Source: Pirellulales bacterium (GTDB lineage: Bacteria > Planctomycetota > Planctomycetia > Pirellulales > Thermoguttaceae). Taken from it: a stretch of 64,000 bases of DNA. The notes beneath the pieces were generated by a model, which searched no databases, was not told the DNA's origin, and was given only the letters and a program-made list of their open reading frames with translations. The stretch lies in the NCBI GenBank assembly GCA_020846145.1, contig JADLEL010000057.1, forward strand, positions 1 to 64,000, read 5' to 3'. Both the position numbers and the translations under genes were made by a program. This document shows positions 3,743 through 62,730 of the stretch, piece after piece (within the stretch, counting starts at the first letter, position 1; every line of letters begins with the position of its first letter).

Positions 3743-3879
3743 GGTTTCCTCTCAGGTTCAGATAAATCATAATAGGAGGAGAGGGGAGAGGGGAGAGGGG
3801 AGAGAGAACGGAGAACGGGGCGAAGTAGCTCCCCATATTCTTTTCAAGACCAAAAGCCAAAGAACCAAGACCTATCTCC

Positions 3880-5886: not shown

Positions 5887-5917
5887 AACCCTGAACCCTG
5901 AACCCTGAATCCTAAGA
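5887..5917 (+). repeat. C-rich heptamer array before the hpnE start
   Basis: (AACCCTG)3 AATCCTAAGA ATG. Confidence 0.85.
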
Positions 5918-7460: not shown

Positions 7461-7493
7461 TTCCCCCTTCCCCCTTCCGCCTTCCGCCTTCGC
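7461..7493 (+). repeat. C-rich heptamer array before the glycosyltransferase start
   Basis: (TTCCCCC)2(TTCCGCC)2 TTCGC ATG. Confidence 0.85.
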
Positions 7494-8816
7494 ATGAAAA
7501 TCGTCTATCTCCTCGCCGGCGCGGGCGGAATGTATTGCGGGAGTTGCCTCCACGGCAACACGCTGGTCGCCGGGCTGCGAAATCTCGGCGCGGACGCCCT
7601 GCTCGCGCCGCTTTATACTCCCCTTCGGACCGACGAGGAGAACCAGAGCATCGCCCGCGTGGCCTTCGGAGGCGTCAACGTTTATCTCCAGGAGCATTCC
7701 GCACTCTTCCGCCACACGCCGTGGTTTCTCGACCGGCTCTTCGACCGACCCGGCTTGTTGCGTTGGTTATCGCGGCGTAGTTCCACGATCCGGCCGGAAA
7801 ACTTGGGTGCCATGACCGTCTCGATGCTCCAAGGCGAAACGGGACACCAAAAAAAGGAAGTTGAAAAACTCGTCGTCTGGCTGCAAGAGATACGGCCCGA
7901 CATAGTGCATCTGAACAACGTGATTCTCATCGGCCCGGCGCGGGAAATCCGCCGCGAGTTGGGTGTGCCCGTCGTCTGCTCGCTCACCGGCGAAGACTCG
8001 TTCCTGGAAAAACTGCTCGAACCGCATTATTCCGCCGCCCGCGAACTGCTTCGCCGACGGGCCGCCGAACTCGACGGCCTGACCGCTATGAACCGCTACT
8101 TCGCCGATTTCATGGCCGATTATCTCGACGTCCCCCGCTCGAAGATCGAAGTCATCCCGCCCGGCTTGAATCTCTCCGGCTATGGCCCAAAGCCGGCTTA
8201 TCGCACGGACTGGCGGTCGTCTTGCGTCATCGGTTTTCTCGCGCGGGTATGTCCCGAAAAAGGTTTGCACCTGCTGGCGGAAGCGGTCCACTTATTATCC
8301 CAAGAAGCTTCCCTGCCGCCGATTCGACTCCGCGCGGCGGGCTATCTCGATCCGGCCGACCGCTGGTATTTGGAAAACATTCACCATCAATTTGCCGATT
8401 GGGGCATCGCCGATCAATTCGAATACGCGGGCGAGTTGGACCACGCCGAGAAGATCGATTTTCTCGCATCGCTGGATGTCTTCAGTGTGCCGACGATCTA
8501 TCGCGAAAGCAAGGGCCTCTCGATTCTCGAAGCCTTCGCCGCCGGCGTCCCGGCCGTCCTCCCGCGGCACGGCACATTTCCCGAGATGCTCGAAATCACC
8601 GGCGGCGGCCTGCTCTGCGAGCCGGGAAAGCCCGCTGCGTTGGCCGAAGCCCTCAAAACCCTAATCCTCCACCCCGACCAAGCCCAAACCGCCGGCCTCC
8701 AGGCTCAACAAAGAGTGCGAGAACGATATAATGTAGAACGAATGGCTCGGAATATGTTGGAGTGGTATCGGAAGATAGGGGATAGGGGATGGGGGAAAGT
8801 AAAAGCCGCTTGCTGA
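7494..8816 (+). CDS. Glycosyltransferase, GT4-like
   Basis: Two-domain glycosyltransferase; VIGFLARVCPEKGLHLLAEA and SVPTIYRESKGLSILEAFAAGVPAVLPRHGTFPEML. Confidence 0.87.
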   Translation: MKIVYLLAGAGGMYCGSCLHGNTLVAGLRNLGADALLAPLYTPLRTDEENQSIARVAFGGVNVYLQEHSALFRHTPWFLDRLFDRPGLLRWLSRRSSTIRPENLGAMTVSMLQGETGHQKKEVEKLVVWLQEIRPDIVHLNNVILIGPAREIRRELGVPVVCSLTGEDSFLEKLLEPHYSAARELLRRRAAELDGLTAMNRYFADFMADYLDVPRSKIEVIPPGLNLSGYGPKPAYRTDWRSSCVIGFLARVCPEKGLHLLAEAVHLLSQEASLPPIRLRAAGYLDPADRWYLENIHHQFADWGIADQFEYAGELDHAEKIDFLASLDVFSVPTIYRESKGLSILEAFAAGVPAVLPRHGTFPEMLEITGGGLLCEPGKPAALAEALKTLILHPDQAQTAGLQAQQRVRERYNVERMARNMLEWYRKIGDRGWGKVKAAC

Positions 8817-8860
8817 ATTGCGACCGTTATGTACCTGTCCAACATCAACTCCGCGATTTT

Positions 8861-8916
8861 CTCGTTCCCAGGCTCCCGCCTGGGAACGCAATGTCCGCGA
8901 GGCTCCCGCCTCGCAG
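8861..8916. repeat. Family E hairpins
   Basis: CGTTCCCAGGCtcccGCCTGGGAACG and GCGAGGCtcccGCCTCGC. Confidence 0.8.
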
Positions 8917-9044
8917 AATCGCCAACCAAACCGTGCCCGCATTGAACAAAACGCGGTCTTGATACTGGATTGGTTCTATCAACAGACATTACATTACCAA
9001 CGATCCACTTAATCCGCATGCATGTGGGGCACTAAACTTTTTTT

Positions 9045-9072
9045 CTATCCTCTATCCCCTATCCCCTATTCA
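9045..9072 (+). repeat. C-rich heptamer array abutting the LolD-type ATPase start
   Basis: CTATCCT CTATCCC CTATCCC CTATTCA ATG. Confidence 0.9.
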
Positions 9073-9756
9073 ATGCTTTCCGTCGAAAACCTCACCAAAC
9101 AATATGCGACTCGCGGCGAACCGCTCGACGTGCTTCGCGGCGTTTCGTTCACTTTGGAATCCGGCCAAAACACGGCGATTCTCGGCCCCAGCGGCTCGGG
9201 CAAAAGCACACTGCTGAGCATCATCGGCGGACTGGAGGAGCCGACCTCTGGAACCGTTGCACTTGATGGGCAAAATCCCAATAAGCTGGACGAACTCGCG
9301 CTGGCCGCGTTCCGCAACGTGCACGTCGGCTTCGTGTTCCAGGAGCATTATTTGCTGCCGCAATGCTCGGTGCTGGAAAACGTGCTCATCCCCACGGTCG
9401 CCGCCGGCAAGACGAAGCGCGAAGCCGTCGAGCGGGCGAAATCACTCTTGGAGCGCGTCGGCCTTTCCGAGCGTATCGAGCATCGGCCAGCCGAACTCTC
9501 CGGCGGCGAGCGCCAGCGGGCGGCCATCGCCCGCGCGCTCGTCAACAAGCCGACGCTGCTCTTGGCCGACGAACCCACCGGCAATCTCGACCGCACCAAC
9601 GCCGACCGCATCGGCCGCCTGCTGTTGGATCTTCAAAAACAAGAAGGAATGATGCTCTTGCTCGTCACCCACAGTGAACGACTTGCTGCGCTCATGAGCC
9701 GCCGGCTGGAATTGGATGAAGGAGTGCTGAAAGAAATGCTGAATGATGATTGCTGA
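9073..9756 (+). CDS. ABC transporter ATP-binding protein (LolD/MacB type)
   Basis: GPSGSGKSTLL, LSGGERQR, LLLADEPTGNLD; in-frame ATG 9073 (MLSVENLTKQY) preferred over 9022. Confidence 0.93.
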   Translation: MLSVENLTKQYATRGEPLDVLRGVSFTLESGQNTAILGPSGSGKSTLLSIIGGLEEPTSGTVALDGQNPNKLDELALAAFRNVHVGFVFQEHYLLPQCSVLENVLIPTVAAGKTKREAVERAKSLLERVGLSERIEHRPAELSGGERQRAAIARALVNKPTLLLADEPTGNLDRTNADRIGRLLLDLQKQEGMMLLLVTHSERLAALMSRRLELDEGVLKEMLNDDC

Positions 9757-9857
9757 ATGCTGAATTATGGGCCATTTGCCGATACGCTAACTAATGAGTA
9801 TCGAATTATTTCAAAACCAACGCTCCCCGCGTGGACGCGGGGGCTAAATGTTTTTCA

Positions 9858-9887
9858 CTATTCCCTATCCCCTATCCCCTGCCCGCC
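9858..9887 (+). repeat. C-rich heptamer array before the permease start
   Basis: CTATTCC CTATCCC CTATCCC CTGCCCG CC ATG. Confidence 0.9.
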
Positions 9888-12800
9888 ATGTCCCTCCTGC
9901 GTCTGATCTTCGTTTCCTTCCTGCACCACTGGCGGATGAATCTCGCCGTGGCCTTGGGCGCGGCGGCGGGAACGGCGGTGTTGACTGGCGCGCTTCTGGT
10001 GGGCGATTCGATGCGCGGCAGCCTCCGCTCGCTCGCCCTCGATCGGCTCGGCAAGATCGACGAAGTCCTCGCCCCCGGCCGCTTCTTCCGCGAAAAACTC
10101 GCCGACGAACTCAAGGAAACCGAGGATTACAAACTGTATGGCGAATCGCTCGTGCCCGCCATTTTGCTTCCCGCCAGCATCGAAAATCCCAATACCCAAA
10201 CACGGGCGAACCGCATCGAAGTGATCGGCTGCAAACGGGATTTTTATGATCTATTCCCGGCTTCTCCAGGCATCGACCGAAGCTTGGTCGATAAAGGGAC
10301 TGGAGGTGAGGGTCGCGAAATCGACCTCAACCAGCCGCTGGCCGAAAAACTCGGCGTTAAATCCGGCGACGAAATCATCCTCCGCCTGCCCAAGCCGGGC
10401 CTAATTCCCTCCGACAGCGCGCTCGGCGAAAAGCGCGACACGGTGCGGAGCTACCGCCTCACCGTCCGCAATATCCTCCCCGCCGCCGGCCCCGGCCGCT
10501 TCAGCCTCAAGCCCAGCCAGCAAGAACCGCTCAACGCCTATGTGCCGCTCGATTGGCTGCAAGAACAGTTGGAGCAGTCGGGGAAGGTGAATACTCTACT
10601 CCTGGGATTGAATGAAATAGGTGAAGAATCGATAGAGCGATATTGGCAAGGCGCGCAGAAAATCACTTTGACGGACATGCTTTCGCGCTTGCGCGCGATC
10701 TTCACAGGCCGAAATAAAATACAATCTAGCTCGAGTGTATATTTCAGTGGTATCTTTTTGCATTGGTCTTTTCCGCTCGATCTCTCCGAAGATTTGGGAT
10801 TACGCATTGAGAAAGTTCCGAAAGGATACGTCAATCTCACCGCCGATAGCATGATCATTCCGCCGGGAATCGACGCGGCGATTGACAATCATGAAATCCA
10901 GGAACGCATGGCGTCTTCCATGACAAATATTCCCGAGGATAAAGATGAATCGCACTATGTCTTTCAAAGAGTCTTCACTTACCTGGCGAATTCGATTTCG
11001 CTCGACGGACGCAACATTCCTTACTCGACGATCACGGCGATCGATTTCTCGGCCGATCCGCCGTTGGGGCCGTTCCTCTCGCCGGATGGCAAGCCGATTT
11101 CGCCGCTTGCCGATACTGAGATTGCCTTGAACAGTTGGGCGGCGGAGGATCTGGCCGCCAAAATCGGCGATAGGATCAAGGTCTGCTACTTCGAACCGGA
11201 AAGCGCGCACGGGCAAATTCGGGAGAAAACGGCGGAGTTCAGGTTGGCGGCCATCGTGCAGCTTGGCGGCGCGGCCGACGATCGCAACTTCACGCCCAGC
11301 GTGAAAGGGATCACCGACATCGAAAGCATGTCGGATTGGGATCCGCCATTTCCGTTCGATGCCAAACGCATTCGGCCCAAAGATGAAAAGTATTGGAAGG
11401 ACTACGGCCCCACGCCCAAGGCGTTCGTATCGCGGGCCGCGGGCCGCGAACTTTGGGGCAATCGGTTTGGGCAAACGACCTCCGTCCGCATGGCCTGCAA
11501 ACCCGGATACTCCGTTCCGGACTCTTTTTCGGAAGAGAAATTCTTTCAAAAGAAGTTGGAGAACTGGTTGCAGTATGGTAGAATTGGTTTCTTCTGGCAG
11601 ACCGTCAAGCTGCAAGCGTTGGCCGCCGCGGAGGGGACGACGCCGTTTAACGTGCTGTTTCTCTGCTTCAGCTTCTTCATCATCGTTTCGGCGCTGATGC
11701 TGGTGCTGCTGCTTTTCAAACTCGGCGTCGAACGGCGGGCGGCGGAAATTGGGATTTTGCTGGCGGTGGGATGGAAGCCGAAAAAAGTCCGCAAGCTGCT
11801 TTTCCGCGAGGGCGTTTTGACCGCGTTGGCCGGCGGAAATATCGGCGTACCGCTGGGTCTCGGCTACGCCGCGCTCATGCTCTGGGGATTGCAAACGTGG
11901 TGGCTGGCGGCCATCGTTACGCCGTTTCTTAAGTTGTACCTCACGCCCGGCAGTTTGTTGATCGGTTTCGTCTCCGGCTTTTTCATGGCTATCCTTACCA
12001 TCTTCTTCGCCGTGCGAAAAATCAGCCGCGTCGCGCCGCGGCAGTTATTAGCGGGTCTCCCCCACGGTGCCATGCCCACGCTTGCCGTGGGCAAGAGGAG
12101 CGCGAGAAAAACTCGACCTTCTCCCGATGATTCCCCTCAACATGCCCACGGCAAGCGTGGGCATGGCACCCGTAATTTTTATAATCGATTCTCATGGATC
12201 GATATTTCGTGGATCATCTTCTTTTCCATCAATCTTCTTTTCTATTTCTTCGCCCGCCGATTGAGCGACCTAGAGGCTGGAATGTTCTTCGGTTGCGGGG
12301 CGATAATGCTGCTCCTCACGCTCTTAGTCCTCTGGAATCGCTTGCGCCGCGGCGCGACCGGCTCGGCGGTGGCCGCGGGCGGAGGAAATCTGTTTCGGCT
12401 GGCAATTCGGAACGCGGCGCGGAATCCCGGCCGCAGCACGCTCACCATCGGATTGGTGGCTTCGGCCTGCTTTTTAATCGTCGCCGTGAGCGCATTCCGA
12501 CTCGATCCCTCGCAGCAAACGCCGACCCTCAAAAGCGGCAACGGCGGATTTGCTTTGGTAGCCGAAAGCAGCCAGCCGATCTTCCAAAATATCGACACGA
12601 CCGACGGCCGTGCGGCGCTCGGCTTCTCCGACGATGAAGAAAAATTGCTTTCGCAGTGCAGGATTTACTCCCTCCGCGTCCGCGCGGGCGACGACGCCAG
12701 TTGCCTGAACCTTTACAAGCCGCGCAGTCCGCGAATTCTCGGCTTGCCGCAAGATTTTCTCGCCCGCGGCGGCTTCGCCTGGGCCGATGCGCCGGCTAAA

Positions 12801-13568
12801 TGCGAAAATCCCTGGAGCTTGCTCGAACCGCGCAATTTGGATATCAAAGCCGAAGTGCCGATGATTCTGGAAAAGAACACCGCCAATTATTCGCTGAATC
12901 TTTGGGAAGGATTGGGCGAGCAGTATTGGTTAAACGACGGGTCGTTTGGATTACGCATCGCTGCGCTTCTGAACAACAGCGTTTTCCAGGGCGATTTGCT
13001 CATCTCCGAAGAAGCCCTGCTCAAAAAATTCCCCGACTCTGCCGGATATCGCTTCTTCCTCGTCGAATGTCCGCCGGAGAAGACCGCCGAAGTGCAAAAA
13101 ATCCTCGAAAACCGGCTGGGCGATTACGGTTTCGCCGCCGAAACGACCGGTGGGCGCCTGGCGCGCTTCCTGGCCGTGCAGAATACCTATCTCTCGACGT
13201 TTCAAAGCCTCGGCGGTCTGGGCCTGTTGCTCGGCACGCTGGGATTGGCCGCCGTGCAGCTTCGCAACATCCTCGAGCGCCGCGGCGAACTCGCCCTGCT
13301 CCGCGCCGTCGGCTTCTCGCGAAAGAAACTCGCCAAACTCGTTTTGCTGGAAAACACCGTGCTGCTCGGCTTGGGCCTCGGCAACGGCATTTTGGCGGCG
13401 CTCGTGGCCGTGATGCCGCATTTCCTCACCAGCAATGCCTCGATCCCGTGGCTTTCGCTGTTCGGCACGTTGCTGCTGGTGTTCCTCGCCGGAACGCTCG
13501 CCGGACTGGCCGCCGTCCGCCAAGTGTTAAGAGCACCACTGTTGAATGCATTGCGCGAAGAGAATTAA
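9888..13568 (+). CDS. FtsX/MacB-type ABC transporter permease (very large), with an in-frame palindromic insert
   Basis: FtsX-type TM segments (LKLGVERRAAEIGILLAVGWKPKKVRKLL; LRNILERRGELALLRAVGFSRKKL); in-frame ATG 9888 follows the heptamer array. Confidence 0.9.
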   Translation: MSLLRLIFVSFLHHWRMNLAVALGAAAGTAVLTGALLVGDSMRGSLRSLALDRLGKIDEVLAPGRFFREKLADELKETEDYKLYGESLVPAILLPASIENPNTQTRANRIEVIGCKRDFYDLFPASPGIDRSLVDKGTGGEGREIDLNQPLAEKLGVKSGDEIILRLPKPGLIPSDSALGEKRDTVRSYRLTVRNILPAAGPGRFSLKPSQQEPLNAYVPLDWLQEQLEQSGKVNTLLLGLNEIGEESIERYWQGAQKITLTDMLSRLRAIFTGRNKIQSSSSVYFSGIFLHWSFPLDLSEDLGLRIEKVPKGYVNLTADSMIIPPGIDAAIDNHEIQERMASSMTNIPEDKDESHYVFQRVFTYLANSISLDGRNIPYSTITAIDFSADPPLGPFLSPDGKPISPLADTEIALNSWAAEDLAAKIGDRIKVCYFEPESAHGQIREKTAEFRLAAIVQLGGAADDRNFTPSVKGITDIESMSDWDPPFPFDAKRIRPKDEKYWKDYGPTPKAFVSRAAGRELWGNRFGQTTSVRMACKPGYSVPDSFSEEKFFQKKLENWLQYGRIGFFWQTVKLQALAAAEGTTPFNVLFLCFSFFIIVSALMLVLLLFKLGVERRAAEIGILLAVGWKPKKVRKLLFREGVLTALAGGNIGVPLGLGYAALMLWGLQTWWLAAIVTPFLKLYLTPGSLLIGFVSGFFMAILTIFFAVRKISRVAPRQLLAGLPHGAMPTLAVGKRSARKTRPSPDDSPQHAHGKRGHGTRNFYNRFSWIDISWIIFFSINLLFYFFARRLSDLEAGMFFGCGAIMLLLTLLVLWNRLRRGATGSAVAAGGGNLFRLAIRNAARNPGRSTLTIGLVASACFLIVAVSAFRLDPSQQTPTLKSGNGGFALVAESSQPIFQNIDTTDGRAALGFSDDEEKLLSQCRIYSLRVRAGDDASCLNLYKPRSPRILGLPQDFLARGGFAWADAPAKCENPWSLLEPRNLDIKAEVPMILEKNTANYSLNLWEGLGEQYWLNDGSFGLRIAALLNNSVFQGDLLISEEALLKKFPDSAGYRFFLVECPPEKTAEVQKILENRLGDYGFAAETTGGRLARFLAVQNTYLSTFQSLGGLGLLLGTLGLAAVQLRNILERRGELALLRAVGFSRKKLAKLVLLENTVLLGLGLGNGILAALVAVMPHFLTSNASIPWLSLFGTLLLVFLAGTLAGLAAVRQVLRAPLLNALREEN
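12066..12170. repeat. Family B palindromic element inside the ABC permease gene
   Basis: GGTGCCATGCCCACGCTTGCCGTGGGCA ... CATGCCCACGGCAAGCGTGGGCATGGCACC. Confidence 0.88.
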
Positions 13569-13648
13569 ACGGGAAAAACCGTTGGCATTCCCTTGCTAAG
13601 CCGCAAGCGGCTGACATTCATCCTTCAGCATTCATACTTCATCCTTCT

Positions 13649-14347
13649 TTACGTTCCCCTTCTCGCCCCAAACCATTCGATCTGTTTTCGTGGGCAGAAC
13701 ATCAATCGGTGCTCCGCGCAATAGGGTTCGAGCCAGCGGGCGATTTTTTCCAGTTCGGCCGGATCGACCCCCTGCGGCATGAGCATCGCCCGGCGGCGGT
13801 CGATTTGCGGCCTCGCGGCCAAATACTCTTCTACCTCGCGGCAATCGGCGGGCGTTTCGACCACGAACTTGAATTGATAATCGCAGTCGGCGATCAGCCG
13901 TTCAATGACGTTCGGCTCGCGGCGATTTTCTTCGTGCCGCGCGAGAATTCGCGGATCGTTCGATTGTACCGGCGTCGAGTTGGACAACTTCGGGCTGATC
14001 GACATCAAATCGCATGCCACCGGCAAATACCGCGTGCCCGAAGTCTCGACGGTGATGTGCCAGCCCGCATTTCGCAGTGCAAGGCTTAAGCTCACCATCT
14101 CATCAAAGAGCATCGGCTCGCCGCCGGTCAGCACGACGTGCCGTTGCGGCCCGGGAATGGCCAATTGTTCGATCCGCTCCAGGATCTCCGCGACCGGCAT
14201 CTCCACTCCTTCCGGCGACCAGGAAGCGTAAAGCGTATCGCAATACCCGCAGCGCAAATTGCAGCCGCACGCGCGCACGAACGCGCACTCGGTCCCCGTC
14301 AACCTTCCCTCTCCTTGCAGCGAGCGAAATATTTCGGAAATTCGCAT
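13649..14347 (-). CDS. queE: 7-carboxy-7-deazaguanine synthase
   Basis: IFRSLQGEGRLTGTECAFVRACGCNLRCGYCDT radical-SAM CX3CX2C motif; next to queC. Confidence 0.93.
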   Translation of the reverse strand: MRISEIFRSLQGEGRLTGTECAFVRACGCNLRCGYCDTLYASWSPEGVEMPVAEILERIEQLAIPGPQRHVVLTGGEPMLFDEMVSLSLALRNAGWHITVETSGTRYLPVACDLMSISPKLSNSTPVQSNDPRILARHEENRREPNVIERLIADCDYQFKFVVETPADCREVEEYLAARPQIDRRRAMLMPQGVDPAELEKIARWLEPYCAEHRLMFCPRKQIEWFGARRGT

Positions 14348-14422
14348 GGTGTAAATGGCCGTTGTTCATCCTGCAAAGCCGCGACCAGTGGTCGCGGTGC
14401 GCGACGCATCGATAAGCAATCT

Positions 14423-15109
14423 TCATTGATATTTTATGGGATCGTCGAATCCCGCTCCGGCAAATCCCTTGCGGCGAAGCTGGCAGGCATCGCAATGGCC
14501 GCAGGCGACGCCTTGTGAATTGGGATCGTAGCACGAATGGGTCAAACCGTAATCGACGCCCAACTCGACGCCGCGGCGAATGATCTCGGCCTTGGTCATC
14601 TGGATGAGCGGCGCGTGGATGCGGAAATTGAGCGTCCCTTCCACGCCCGCCTTCGTGGCCAGGTTCGCCAGCTTCTCGAAAGCGGCGATGAATTCGCCGC
14701 GGCAGTCGGGGTAGCCGCTGTAGTCGATCGCGTTCACGCCGATGAAAATATCCGCCGCCCGAACCACCTCGGCGTAAGCCAGCGCGAGCGAGAGCAGCAC
14801 CGTATTGCGGGCGGGCACGTAGGTAACGGGAATGCCGTGCGACATCGTCTCGGCGTCGCGGTCCTTGGGCACGGCGATGGCGTCGGTCAGCGCGCTGCCG
14901 CCGAACTGGGCCAGATCGACCTTCACTACCGCATGGCGTCTAACGCCCAGCGCCGCGCACACCCGCCGGGCCGCTTCCAACTCGAACCGATGCCGCTGGC
15001 CGTAATCGACCGAAATTGCAAAAAGCTCGTACCCCTCCCGCCGGGCAATCGCCGCCGCCGTCGCCGAATCGAGTCCGCCGGAAAGGAGGATGATAGCCGA
15101 TCGGGTCAT
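14423..15109 (-). CDS. queC: 7-cyano-7-deazaguanine synthase
   Basis: [22 protein letters not shown] (PP-loop) and [14 protein letters not shown]. Confidence 0.95.
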
Positions 15110-15147
15110 ATAGTTAGGGGATAGGGGATAGAGGATAGGGGATAGGA
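15110..15147 (-). repeat. C-rich (minus strand) heptamer array before the queC start
   Basis: Minus strand: CTATCCC CTATCCT CTATCCC CTATCCC CTAACTAT ATG. Confidence 0.88.
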
Positions 15148-15363
15148 AAAAATCGTTTAGCCCCCGCGTCCACGCTGGGTACTGTGTGGTCCTTTGAAAG
15201 CCGCGACCACTGGTCGCGTTTTATAGGGTTTTGAGTACAAAGTACGGCGTATTCAACGCATTTCCTTCTTTCTTCATCACCCCTCTCCTGGAGGACATCT
15301 GGCTGTTTGCCACTCTTTCCTTTATCATTACATAAAATTTCATCCTCGAACAGGAGTGAACCG

Positions 15364-15732
15364 GTGGCCCCCCCCTTAAGTAAAATATTGGAAACATTTG
15401 ATAACCAATATCCGGATCGGGATTACACGATCGAAATCGTCTGCCCCGAGTTCACGTCCGTTTGCCCGAAAACGGGCCAGCCAGACTTCGGCACGCTAAC
15501 GATCAATTACGTGCCCGAAAAGAAATGCGTGGAACTGAAGAGCCTCAAGCTCTATTTGCTGCAATTCCGCAACGAGGGCATATTTTACGAAAACGTAACC
15601 AACCGCATCCTCGACGACCTCGTCGCCGCCCTTCACCCTCGCCGCATGACTCTCACCGCCGCCTTCAACGCCCGCGGAGGAATCACCACCACTGTCACGG
15701 CGACGCACAAGGCGGAAGTTCATGGGAAATGA
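15364..15732 (+). CDS. queF: NADPH-dependent 7-cyano-7-deazaguanine reductase
   Basis: [39 protein letters not shown]; likely GTG start at 15364 with AGGAG upstream (ORF track starts at 15307). Confidence 0.92.
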
Positions 15733-15863
15733 TCGATGATGAAGTTTAGTCGCAATCCGAAGGAGAGCGTATCTGTTGATTTCAAATTGGTAATTGCAAA
15801 TTGCACAAACACAACCAACGCCTCCCTCACTCGCGAGTGGAAACGATGATTGAGCGATTTTTC

Positions 15864-15903
15864 CTATCCCCTATCCCCTATCCCCTATCCCCTATCCCCT
15901 TCC
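15864..15903 (+). repeat. C-rich heptamer array before the isomerase/epimerase start
   Basis: (CTATCCC)5 CTTCC ATG. Confidence 0.92.
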
Positions 15904-19063: not shown

Positions 19064-19088
19064 GGAATATGTTCGATGAAACGATTAA

Positions 19089-19179
19089 ATGCAAAGTCGC
19101 GACCGCCGAATGCAAAGCCGCGACCGCCGAATGCAAAGCCGCGACCACCGAATGCAAAGCCGCGACCACTGGTCGCGGT
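19089..19179. repeat. 21-bp tandem repeat ending in family D palindrome
   Basis: ATGCAAAG(C/T)CGCGACC(G/A)CCGA x3, then ATGCAAAGCCGCGACCACTGGTCGCGG; the same palindrome is at 14379-14397 and 15201-15218. Confidence 0.85.
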
Positions 19180-20980: not shown

Positions 20981-21007
20981 TTCTGGGGGCTAGGGGCCAG
21001 GGGATAG
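20981..21007 (-). repeat. C-rich (minus strand) heptamer array before the argS start
   Basis: Minus strand: CTATCCC CTGGCCC CTAGCCC CCAGAA ATG. Confidence 0.82.
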
Positions 21008-32525: not shown

Positions 32526-32647
32526 ATCGCGAAAGCCCGAAAGGGCGAAAACGCGAAAAACAACCATTGGGACCATTTTTATTCAGGGCGGATATCGCGT
32601 TACCTCAAATACTTTTTCGCGATTTCGTTCTTTCGCGTTTTCGCGAT
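32526..32647. repeat. Long imperfect inverted repeat
   Basis: ATCGCGAAAGCCCGAAAGGGCGAAAACGCGAAAAA (32526-32560) versus CTTTTTCGCGATTTCGTTCTTTCGCGTTTTCGCGAT (arm ending 32647). Confidence 0.6.
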
Positions 32648-58984: not shown

Positions 58985-59203
58985 GAGGTTGGAGTTGGTT
59001 GGAATAGGAAGCGAGAGGATAAATGATGAATATCCTCGTTTCAAGACTCCGCCTGAGAGCGTAATGTTATCAGGGCTCTGTATCGCTGAAGCGAGAGTCT
59101 AATTTTTTTCAAGAACTAAGGAGACAGAGGCACCAAGACGGTGGGCTTGAAGTCGGAGCCTGGGAACGAGTACCTTCGTCTTCCATTCATCATTCATCAA
59201 TCA

Positions 59204-62200
59204 TCATTCATCATTCTTTTCCTCGCCCCTCGCCGGTCCCGAAAACTTTTCGCTCAAATGCTGCAAAATGTTGTAGAAAACGGGGGTCAAAAAGAGGCCG
59301 AAAAAGGTAACGCCCAACATGCCGTAAAACACGGCGGTGCCCAGGGTGCTGCGCATTTCGGCGCCCGCGCCCGAGGCGAGCATCAGCGGCACCACGCCGA
59401 GGATGAAGGCGAAGGAGGTCATGACGATCGGCCGCAGGCGGAGCCGCGCCGATTCCACCACCGCGTCGTGGATCGACAATCCTTGTTCGCGCTGCTGCTT
59501 GGCGAACTCCACGATCAGCACCGCATTTTTACACGCCAGTCCGGCCAGCACCACGAAGCCGATCTGCGTGAAGAGGTTGTTGTCCATGCCGCAAAGCCAC
59601 ACGCCCGCCAATGCACAAAGCAGACTCATGGGGACGATCAGCACGATAGCCAGCGGCAGCGTGAAGCTTTCGTATTGGGCAGCCTGGGTGAGGAACACCA
59701 AGAGCACGCACAGCGGGAAGATGAGGATCGCCGTATTGCCCGCCAGGTTTTGCAGCAGCGTAAGCTCGGTCCATTCGGGCTTGAAGCCGGAGGGGAGGTT
59801 CTCCTCGCCCAGATCATTCATGATTTCGATGGCCTGGCCGGAGCTGACGCCGGGGGTCCAACCGCCGGAGATCGACGTCGCGGGGTACATTTGATAGCGG
59901 TTGATCATCACGGGGCCGGCGATGTTTTTCACCGTGGCCACCGCGCCCAGCGGCACCATGCCCCCCTTGTCGTTGCGGACCTTGAGCCGTTCGATATCGA
60001 CGGGCGTCATGCGGTATTGTTCGTCGGCCTGGACGATCACCTGCCACGTGCGGTCGAAGCGGTTGAAGTCGTTGACGTAGTAATTGCTCAAGTTGTACTG
60101 CAAGGCGTTGAAGACGTCGCTCATCGCCACGCCCATCGTCTTGCAGCGGCTGCGGTCGATATCGACGTAGAGTTGCGGCGTGTTGGCGCGGAAGATGCTG
60201 AACAGGCCCACCAATTCCGGCTCCGCGTTGCCCTTCGCGATCAAGTTGTCGGTTTGGATTTGAAGCGGTTCGAGGCCGCGGCTTCCCCGGTCCTCGACCA
60301 TCAGCTTGAATCCGCCGGCGTTGCCCAGGCCATCGACGGGCGGCGCGCCGAAGACCGAGACGATCGCGTCTCGAATCTCGTGATTGTAGCGGGCGCGGAG
60401 TTTCGCCGCGACGGCGTTGGCCGTATGCTCGGACCCGTGCCGATTGTGGAACTCGTCGAGAATCACGTAAACCGAGCCGAAATTCGAGCCGTTTGCGTTG
60501 GCGAGGAACGATTGGCCCGAAATGACCAAGGTGTTTTTCACGCCGTCGATTTCGTGGGTGATTTTTTCGATGCGGTCCATGACCTGTTGCGTGCGTTCGA
60601 GCGAGGCCGAATCGGGCAGTTGCACGTTGACCAGCAGATAGCCTTTGTCCTGGTCGGGAATGAAGCCCACCGGCACGACCGTGAAGCCGTAATAGGTCAG
60701 GTACATCAATCCCCCGTACACGAGCAGCCCGATGGCCGAAGCGCGAACGCAATGCCGGACCGCCCCGGCATAGACGCCGGTCGTAACGTTGAAGACTTTG
60801 TTGAAGCCCTTGAAAAACCAGCCGAAAGCGAGGTCGAGCAGCCGCGTGAGCCAATCTTTCTTCGCTCCGTGCGGCTTCAAGAGGATCGCCGCCAAGGCGG
60901 GGCTTAACGTCAGCGAATTGAAGGCCGAAATGAGCGTCGCCGTGGCGATGGTCAAGGCGAACTGGCGGAAGAACTGCCCGGTGATGCCCGACATGAACGC
61001 CGTGGGAATGAACACCGCGCTAAGGCTGAAGGCGATGGCGATGACCGCCAGGGAGACTTCCTCCATCGACTTGTAGGCGGCTTCCTTGGGCGAGAGGCCG
61101 TGCTCCATCCAGCGTTCCACGTTCTCCACGACCACGATCGCGTCATCGACCACGATGCCGATGGCCAGCACCAGCCCGAAAAGCGTGAGGTTGTTGAGCG
61201 TGTAGCCTAATCCGGCCATCACGGCGAAAGTGCCGACGAGCGAAACCGGCACGGCAACCAGCGGGATGACGGTGGAGCGCCAGTTTTGCAGAAAGACCAG
61301 CACCACGATGGCCACGAGAGCGATCGCTTCGCCGAGCGCTTTATACACTTCGTTGATCGACTCTTGTATAAAGGGCGTGGTGTCGTAAACGATGTCGTAG
61401 TTCAGGCCCGGCGGAAAGTCCTTCGCCAGTTCCTCCATTTTGAGTTTGACGTTCTCGCTCGTATCGATCGCGTTCGTGCCCGGCAATTGGAAGATCGCCA
61501 AGCCGACCGAGGGCATGCCGTCCAAGCGGCACGATTGATCCTGGTTTTTGGCGCCGAGTTCGACGCGGGCGACGTCGCCCAACCGGACAATTTCCCCTTT
61601 TTTGCCGGTCTTGATGATGATCCTCTCGAATTCCTTGCTGCTGGTGAGCCGGCCCAGCGTGGAGAGCGTGTATTGAAACGCCGTGCCCTTGATCGCCGGC
61701 GGCTGGCCGAGTTGCCCGGCCGCGACCTGGATGTTCTGCTCGCGTAGGGCCGCCACGACGTCGCCGGCGGACATATCGAGGGCGTCCAGCTTTTTGGGAT
61801 CGAGCCAAACCCGCATGCTGTAATCCTGCTGGCCCAAGAACGTGACGTCGCCGACCCCTTCGAGCCGCGCCAACTCGTCCTTGATCGTGATCGTCGCCTT
61901 GTTGCTCATGTAGAGCTGGTCGAACTCGCCCGTTTTGGAATAGAGGTTCACCACCAACAGGATGGCGGGGGATTTCTTCTTCGTCGTTACGCCGGTTTGC
62001 TTGACCACGTCGGGCAACGTCGGCATGGCGATCGACACGCGGTTCTGCACCAGCACCTGCGCCATGTCCAAATTGGTCCCCAGCTTGAAGGTTACCGTCA
62101 GGTTGTAGGTGCCGTCGTTCGTGCATTGCGACGACATGTAGAGCATGTTTTCCACGCCGTTGACCTGCTGCTCGATGGGCGCGGCGACCGTATCGGCCAC

Positions 62201-62371: not shown

Positions 62372-62409
62372 GCGGGGGCAGGGGATAGGGGATGGGGGAT
62401 AGGGATTAG
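62372..62409 (-). repeat. C-rich (minus strand) heptamer array before the AcrB-like start
   Basis: Minus strand: CTAATCC CTATCCC CCATCCC CTATCCC CTGCCCC CGC ATG. Confidence 0.9.
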
Positions 62410-62417
62410 GGAAGTAT

Positions 62418-62480
62418 GAAGGATGAAGTATGAATGCTGAAGGATGAAGTATGAATGCTGAAGGATGAAGTATGAATGCT
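62418..62480. repeat. 21-bp tandem repeat x3
   Basis: GAAGGATGAAGTATGAATGCT x3. Confidence 0.92.
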
Positions 62481-62513
62481 GAATTCAACTACAGCCGCTT
62501 GCGGTTTCACAAT

Positions 62514-62661
62514 TTCTACTCGTTCCCACGCTCCGGCGTGGGAACGCAATTTTTGGACGCTCCTGCGTCCTAGGCATGAGTGTAAAATTCTACTCGTTCC
62601 CACGCTCCGGCGTGGGAACGCAATTTTTGGACGCTCCTGCGTCCTAGGCATGAGTGTAAAA
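62514..62661. repeat. Family E, 74-bp unit duplicated in tandem
   Basis: TTCTACTCGTTCCCACGCTCCGGCGTGGGAACGCAATTTTTGGACGCTCCTGCGTCCTAGGCATGAGTGTAAAA twice. Confidence 0.9.
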
Positions 62662-62730
62662 TTTAGCGCTGGTTAGCACTGCGACGACGCCGGAGCGTGG
62701 GAACAACTTGAAACCACCAACGACCAACAA

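Follow-up and report, generated by a model that had tools for sequence, protein, structure and literature searches.

Heptamer arrays at gene borders of a Pirellulales genome as probable arms of dispersed inverted-repeat elements

The 64,000-nucleotide stretch analysed here (the window) is the beginning of contig JADLEL010000057.1 of a Pirellulales bacterium (GCA_020846145.1) and belongs to a genome of 5.81 Mb in 224 contigs (G000), the partial 16S sequence of which we read as planctomycete. An earlier reading of the window, made without database searches (the sequence-only reading), had described C-rich tandem arrays of 7-bp units directly before start codons and had taken them to be locked to these starts. 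Our analysis indicates that the arrays are not a start-codon signal but probably form the paired arms of inverted-repeat elements that are dispersed in the genome and behave similarly to the Rickettsia palindromic elements (RPEs). Such an element would have the layout 5'-(purine-rich heptamers)-core-(pyrimidine-rich heptamers)-3', identical when read from either strand, and would mostly occupy a short gap between genes, with the purine arm meeting the end of the upstream gene and the pyrimidine arm meeting the next start. The apparent lock to starts would then result from this anatomy and the shortness of the host gaps, given that removal of the element leaves a median of only 24.5 nt, compared to 171 nt in those co-directional gaps that lack arrays (p = 1e-11).

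The window and 100 more stretches of the same genome, together 1.70 Mb, were scanned for tandem periods, with genes called by a codon model blind to both Shine-Dalgarno (SD) sequences and arrays. Stretches 1–80 are contig beginnings chosen by number irrespective of arrays, whilst the other 20 continue along long contigs, of which several were already known to bear arrays; densities may hence be slightly high, with in-gap positions unaffected. This sample contains 261 period-7 arrays, 211 in gaps and 50 in coding sequence calls, as against 0–5 arrays for each of the other periods between 4 and 13 (period 14 merely echoes period 7), and local shuffles of the sample returned no period-7 array: the period described from the window is thus borne out. 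The arrays are concentrated at gene borders, with 58 lying within 15 nt of a start compared to 29.6 upon random re-placement inside the same gaps (maximum of 45 in 1000 rounds), and 64 lying within 15 nt of a stop compared to 29.7 (maximum of 46). Between co-directional genes, arrays with a C-rich (pyrimidine-rich) sense strand end a median of 15 nt upstream of the start, whilst those with a G-rich (purine-rich) sense strand begin a median of 8 nt past the preceding stop, and the order of neighbouring arrays is purine to pyrimidine in 66 cases and the reverse in 2. This polarity is kept at 176 of 197 co-directional borders (starts 90/98, stops 86/99), at 13 of 16 divergent starts and at 5 of 8 convergent stops; lone arrays also obey (21:3 at starts, 15:3 at stops). 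Thus, the enrichment close to starts and the C-rich sense polarity before them hold across the sample, and the outcome that the sequence-only reading had named as its refutation did not occur, but a lock to start codons is not supported: a similar number of arrays is mirrored at stops, and blocks are also found in genes far from any start. The polarity is kept by most unit families, for instance 25:0 for GAATGAT, 13:2 for GAAGGAT, 9:1 for AGGCAGT and 16:1 for ACTCTCC-type units, and is weak for the AAGGGGG family (5:4) and the AAATTTC type. Stop codons within the purine arm were considered as a selective cause of the polarity at stops and rejected, as the ACTCTCC-type units are free of stops and obey nonetheless.

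If the arrays acted as translation leaders, the pyrimidine-rich units would stand in for the SD sequence as a landing site for ribosomal protein S1, a cold-shock protein or another protein with an oligonucleotide-binding (OB) fold, and the number of units would tune expression, a view near to that of the sequence-only reading. Besides the number of arrays ending close to starts, the near absence of SD-like 4-mers at array starts is consistent with such a role (1/58 genes, compared to 317/1024 other genes), which has also been proposed for a start-locked heptamer: according to MacGregor (2015, PMC4679880), forward direct repeats of TAACTGA in marine Beggiatoaceae end ~1 nt before starts that lack an SD. 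However, the displacement of the SD, which had been claimed for the window and is confirmed in number, is largely automatic, as the array simply fills the SD site; the polarity is equally strong at stops and is also present in convergent gaps of a second genome (G094, see below) and within genes; and the units vary widely without a common recognition motif. A translation leader is thus an unlikely reason for the arrays. The Beggiatoaceae repeats also differ from them, consisting of one unit with emphasis on the start side and, in the part of that report available, no stop-side rule, whilst half of the arrays here lie at stops, in the opposite orientation; TAACTGA is not among the units listed for this genome. 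The statement in the sequence-only reading that no start-locked heptamer was known has to be withdrawn on account of these repeats and of the full mirror rule described for Xanthomonas and Nostoc (PMC4692102).

The two arms of one gap belong together: they co-occur (odds ratio 10.5, p = 5e-20), their duplex reaches -31.5 kcal/mol compared to -20.9 +/- 1.5 kcal/mol for re-paired arms, and pairs of arms with different units are also complementary beyond re-pairing (P = 0.017). A unit is shared by the opposite arms of a gap in 29 of 98 pairs (6.7% by chance), whilst arms on either side of a gene, or in adjacent gaps of the sample, show no such sharing. Array-flanked gene cassettes were accordingly rejected, as unit sharing runs across gaps and not genes. 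Complementary arms would also be expected from an intercistronic RNA stem in co-transcribed pairs, formed between the purine arm behind one stop codon and the pyrimidine arm ahead of the next start. Such a stem would couple translation, in that translating the upstream gene makes the downstream start accessible, or would stabilise the mRNA. The gap types of G000 fit this explanation, with arrays in 140 of 452 co-directional gaps compared to 4 of 114 convergent gaps (p = 1.6e-11) and 9 of 76 divergent ones, but this preference may only reflect that operonic gaps are short and co-directional, and may also be explained by the element filling short gaps. In G094, which belongs to another family of the same order, convergent gaps are not depleted (7/31 array-bearing, compared to 27/130 co-directional gaps) and they keep the polarity without any start being present. 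Since lone arms are moreover common in the 1.70-Mb sample and in-gene copies have no stop-start pair, we consider it rather improbable that the arrays exist as RNA stems. Effects of the SD-less pyrimidine-rich leader on translation, or of arm pairing on co-transcribed mRNA, are possible secondary consequences.

The stretches of G094 were chosen around hits of its dominant unit, GAATGAT, which biases the array density but not position or polarity: 26 of 32 borders keep the polarity rule, and the order of neighbouring arrays is purine to pyrimidine in a ratio of 12:0. Arrays of GAATGAT are patchily distributed, being found in 12 of 100 genomes of the order, with same-genus matches numbering 18 in G058, 5 in G004 and 1 in G040. 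Stop-side arms of G094 (L169-L188) repeat one interruption, AATGATGAATGCGGAATGATGAATGATGAATG, and two arms of G000 (L056, L105) match it save for two bases, a sequence pattern that suggests a common source across families.

In most unit families the arrays end at preferred, non-random unit phases, and mixed 28-mers with an identical variant pattern are common to up to 7 arrays; for these two reasons the arms look like copies and not like independent products of slippage. Slippage in situ would require that neutral repeats expand wherever they are tolerated, with the polarity arising from purifying selection against purine-rich leaders that make decoy SDs or starts. Purine-rich units do contain SD-like motifs and ATG or GTG, as read from their sequence, whilst pyrimidine-rich ones contain none, and gaps hold most of the arrays; this explanation nevertheless leaves the end phases, the shared 28-mers, the matched inverted arms and the exclusive period of 7 unaccounted for, together with the polarity of lone stop-side arrays and the whole blocks within conserved genes, and is in our judgement very unlikely. 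Directional growth of the arms was rejected as well, given that there is no gradient of degeneracy (inner half 0.045, outer half 0.057) and no contrast beyond either end.

Arrays also occur inside genes, in six cases as a block whose two arms share a reading frame (two in uvrA and one each in mutS, hypF, a ccsB-like gene and a gene of the ubiD family), and all six show the order purine to pyrimidine; single in-gene arrays are found on either strand. In UvrA, a 46-residue block (~186–231) falls between the adjacent residues 624/625 of a Geobacillus-type homologue; in MutS, the alignment stops near 589 and restarts at 662, with the NCBIfam MutS match ending at 606; and in HypF, two extra segments (309–345 and 468–512) separate matching blocks. 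The inserts of all three proteins are absent from homologues in the PDB. As these blocks have no start or stop codon nearby, the polarity is a property of the element itself, independent of signals for translation. A cyclase and LysA also carry extra segments, each with a single array, whilst the blocks of the ubiD-family and ccsB-like genes lie near the C-terminus of the protein, outside the matched domains, and argue less strongly for an insertion; the ubiD-family gene may in addition have a disturbed reading frame towards its end. Within genes, unit families free of stop codons would persist, adding in-frame segments to conserved proteins that are intact in other respects. The mutS gene (L083:1972-4767) has its block of ~70 codons directly upstream of the ATPase domain; should mismatch repair be weakened, this might be relevant to the instability of repeats. 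Beside its heptamer block, the ubiD-family gene (L072:16397-18205) contains a further in-frame palindrome, GCGAAAAAGGGGACAGTCCCC...GGGGACTGTCCCCTTTTTCGC.

With a median length of 146 bp (typically 100–180 bp), the elements in gaps would have arrived as blocks, like those within genes, and we infer that they are mobile. Their arms would spread by copying and the elements would be retained where the host tolerates them, with selection presumably removing most insertions elsewhere. Several observations weigh against dispersed elements of this kind. In contrast to classical terminal inverted repeats, the two arms differ in their unit in 43 of the 66 pairs, and 25 of 42 cores have no match, so that whole elements are seldom copied as a unit. 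No transposase could be linked to the arrays: Y1_Tnp, the type associated with repetitive extragenic palindromic (REP) sequences, occurs in 49 of 60 relatives irrespective of arrays, and 12 matches are found in G000 itself. No target-site duplication is evident at the in-gene copies, as judged by eye, and the in-gene sample is skewed towards in-frame cases, as gene calling would have assigned insertions that break the frame to gaps. Individual gaps may alternatively have gained an arm at each border, with the former gap sequence now forming the core. A link to REP sequences and their associated tyrosine transposases (RAYTs) finds no clear support, Y1_Tnp being too widespread among relatives with or without arrays. 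Dispersal of whole elements via conserved cores was rejected, because most cores do not recur and one of those that do is an unrelated dispersed repeat.

Dispersed tandem heptanucleotide arrays with several units per genome are known from cyanobacteria as short tandemly repeated repetitive (STRR) sequences, which the arrays described here resemble in both respects; the STRR sequences are known as interspersed arrays. A close match in placement is provided by the heptamers GGGAATC of Xanthomonas and GGGGA(C/T)T of Nostoc, which are intergenic and have been interpreted as G-quadruplexes (Rehm et al. 2015, PMC4692102). The rule given there is that the repeats are G-rich on the sense strand within 50 bp of a stop, or on the antisense strand within 50 bp upstream of an open reading frame (ORF). 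Dispersed 7-bp units in gaps, the lack of an excess of other periods and the mirror polarity are thus common to both systems, as is the preference for aligned ORFs in G000 (weak or absent in G094), and some inverted pairs are reported in that work also. The systems differ in that one unit per genome is described there, compared to dozens of units, paired complementary arms and in-frame blocks in UvrA, MutS and HypF here; neither a palindromic element nor an insertion into conserved domains is recognised in the part of the paper available.

The G-quadruplex interpretation itself would have the purine strand form the quadruplex and its placement at borders serve transcription or genome stability. 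Similar heptamers form G-quadruplexes in vitro (PMC4692102), and (GGGGATA)4 and (GGGGAGA)4 match the G-quadruplex pattern. Only the ATCCCCT and CCCCTCT families satisfy the pattern here, however: GAATGAT, GAAGGAT and AGGCAGT have no runs of three G and keep the polarity, as does G094, which is dominated by GAATGAT. Since families with and without this capacity behave alike, the G-quadruplex was rejected as a general cause and is a highly improbable explanation of the arrays.

RPEs, as presented in a review on miniature inverted-repeat transposable elements (MITEs; PMC10969869), are ~150-bp palindromes found in gaps and in-frame in many unrelated conserved genes. The elements described here are likewise inverted-repeat blocks of ~100–200 bp found in-frame in unrelated conserved genes, but have heptamer arms of variable unit and mostly unique cores, whilst RPEs conserve both their sequence and the encoded peptide. 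Unequal arms and unique cores speak against a classical MITE, and no target duplication is seen by eye. In Chloroflexus, too, a heptamer rich in purines, (GATAGRA)n, recurs at numerous sites in a single genome; in the part of PMC6749651 available it is catalogued as a satellite, with position and polarity not described. Within the partial literature covered, we did not find described the combination of a single polarity followed by many units, paired arms that complement each other and full blocks in conserved proteins, which is no proof of novelty.

It is conceivable, if doubtful, that a single class of mobile DNA, so far unrecognised and crossing phyla, has as its arms the heptamer arrays of Planctomycetota, Beggiatoaceae, Nostoc and Xanthomonas, and that its mobilisation adds purine-rich 7-nt units to exposed 3' ends of DNA, in a templated, telomerase-like or hairpin-primed manner. 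The constant period, the polarity with purines outward at either side, the occurrence of lone arms, the mixing of units and the missing target duplications would all follow from such addition.

Dispersed palindromic elements with heptamer arms would thus replace the start-codon signal as a reading that is itself testable. The elements would supply 5' leaders and 3' trailers in about a third of the sampled co-directional gaps of 40–400 bp and lengthen conserved proteins in-frame, and one geometry would tie together three heptamer phenomena that were published separately, of which G-quadruplex formation cannot be the common cause. The question of why exactly seven bases are used becomes directly testable, and caution is indicated in genomes of this type, where repeat DNA shapes gene starts, SD statistics and protein ends.

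In the window itself, Tandem Repeats Finder (TRF) returned seven of the eight gene-start arrays that had been described (those at 5887, 7461, 9045, 9858, 15115(-), 15863 and 62380(-)), whilst the eighth, before argS, exists in a degenerate form that falls short of every repeat threshold. The ninth array, upstream of ispH, was also recovered. As read from the sequence, start-side arrays end ~2–8 nt upstream of the ATG, and the start positions are backed by N-terminal domain matches (residue 3 of AcrB corresponds to profile position 1, residue 5 of QueC to 2 and residue 7 of ArgS to 3). Mirror arrays at gene ends, at 8774–8796, 9735–9765 and 59184–59216, had been overlooked. All arrays are collected in Table 1.

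Table 1. Heptamer arrays of the window and the core of one arm pair.
Feature	Position	Strand	Context	Basis
(CTCTCCC)n array	3778..3804	- (pyrimidine strand)	divergent gap between ispH (minus) and a plus-strand gene; abuts no start	TRF + sequence
AACCCTG array, pyrimidine arm	5887..5913	+	upstream of hpnE-like ATG 5918; gene with amine oxidoreductase domain	TRF
TTCCCCC/TTCCGCC array, pyrimidine arm	7461..7491	+	2 nt upstream of glycosyltransferase ATG 7494	TRF + sequence
GATAGGG array, purine arm of 8774–9069 pair	8774..8796	- (pyrimidine strand)	within final codons of the glycosyltransferase	TRF + sequence
Core between arms of 8774–9069 pair	8797..9043	.	~120–146 bp of the core is a separate dispersed repeat	
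CTATCCC array, pyrimidine arm	9044..9069	+	3 nt upstream of LolD-type ATPase ATG 9073; unit as in the 8774 arm	TRF + sequence
AATGCTG array, purine arm of 9735–9880 pair	9735..9765	- (pyrimidine strand)	spans stop of LolD-type gene (9756)	TRF + sequence
CTATCCC array, pyrimidine arm	9858..9880	+	7 nt upstream of FtsX-permease ATG 9888	TRF + sequence
Degenerate TTCATCC/CATTCATACTTCAG array	13615..13647	+	convergent gap, adjoins stop of minus-strand gene 13649–14347	TRF + sequence
CTATCCC array, pyrimidine arm	15115..15146	-	5 nt upstream of queC start 15109	TRF + sequence
CTATCCC array, 5.4 copies, pyrimidine arm	15863..15900	+	3 nt upstream of sugar-isomerase-like ATG 15904	TRF + sequence
Degenerate CTATCCC-like array	20981..21007	-	upstream of argS start (20980); under detection thresholds	sequence only
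CATTCAT array, stop-side arm	59184..59216	+	spans stop of minus-strand AcrB-like gene; purine-rich in the sense of that gene	TRF + sequence
CTATCCC-type array, pyrimidine arm	62380..62404	-	upstream of AcrB-like ATG (62372–62374); ACR_tran domain from residue 3	TRF + sequence
Second array, further upstream of AcrB-like gene	62411..62483	-	21-bp higher-order unit of three related heptamers (plus strand: GAAGGAT GAAGTAT GAATGCT)	TRF + sequence

Across the genome, CTATCCC occurs in tandem 232 times; the reversed-pattern control used in the search for tandem units is the same repeat in shifted form and hence carries no information. A search for relatives of the permease gene gave one distant locus. 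Several further repeats are present in the window. Positions 8861–8978 are part of the ~120–146 bp dispersed repeat listed in Table 1, with the palindrome GTTCCCAGGC...GCCTGGGAAC, which is found at about ten other sampled sites with 85–98% identity, nearly all of them without heptamer arms. Upstream of the AcrB-like gene, positions 62514–62663 hold a perfect 74-bp tandem duplication with the palindrome GTTCCCACGCTCCGGCGTGGGAAC. A 21-bp tandem repeat of 3.8 copies (AATGCAAAGCCGCGACCGCCG) is found at 19088–19167, close to the end of a minus-strand reading frame, and two inverted arrays of 8-bp period (CGCGAAAG and TTTTCGCG) at 32528–32645 present the paired-arm layout at a different period.

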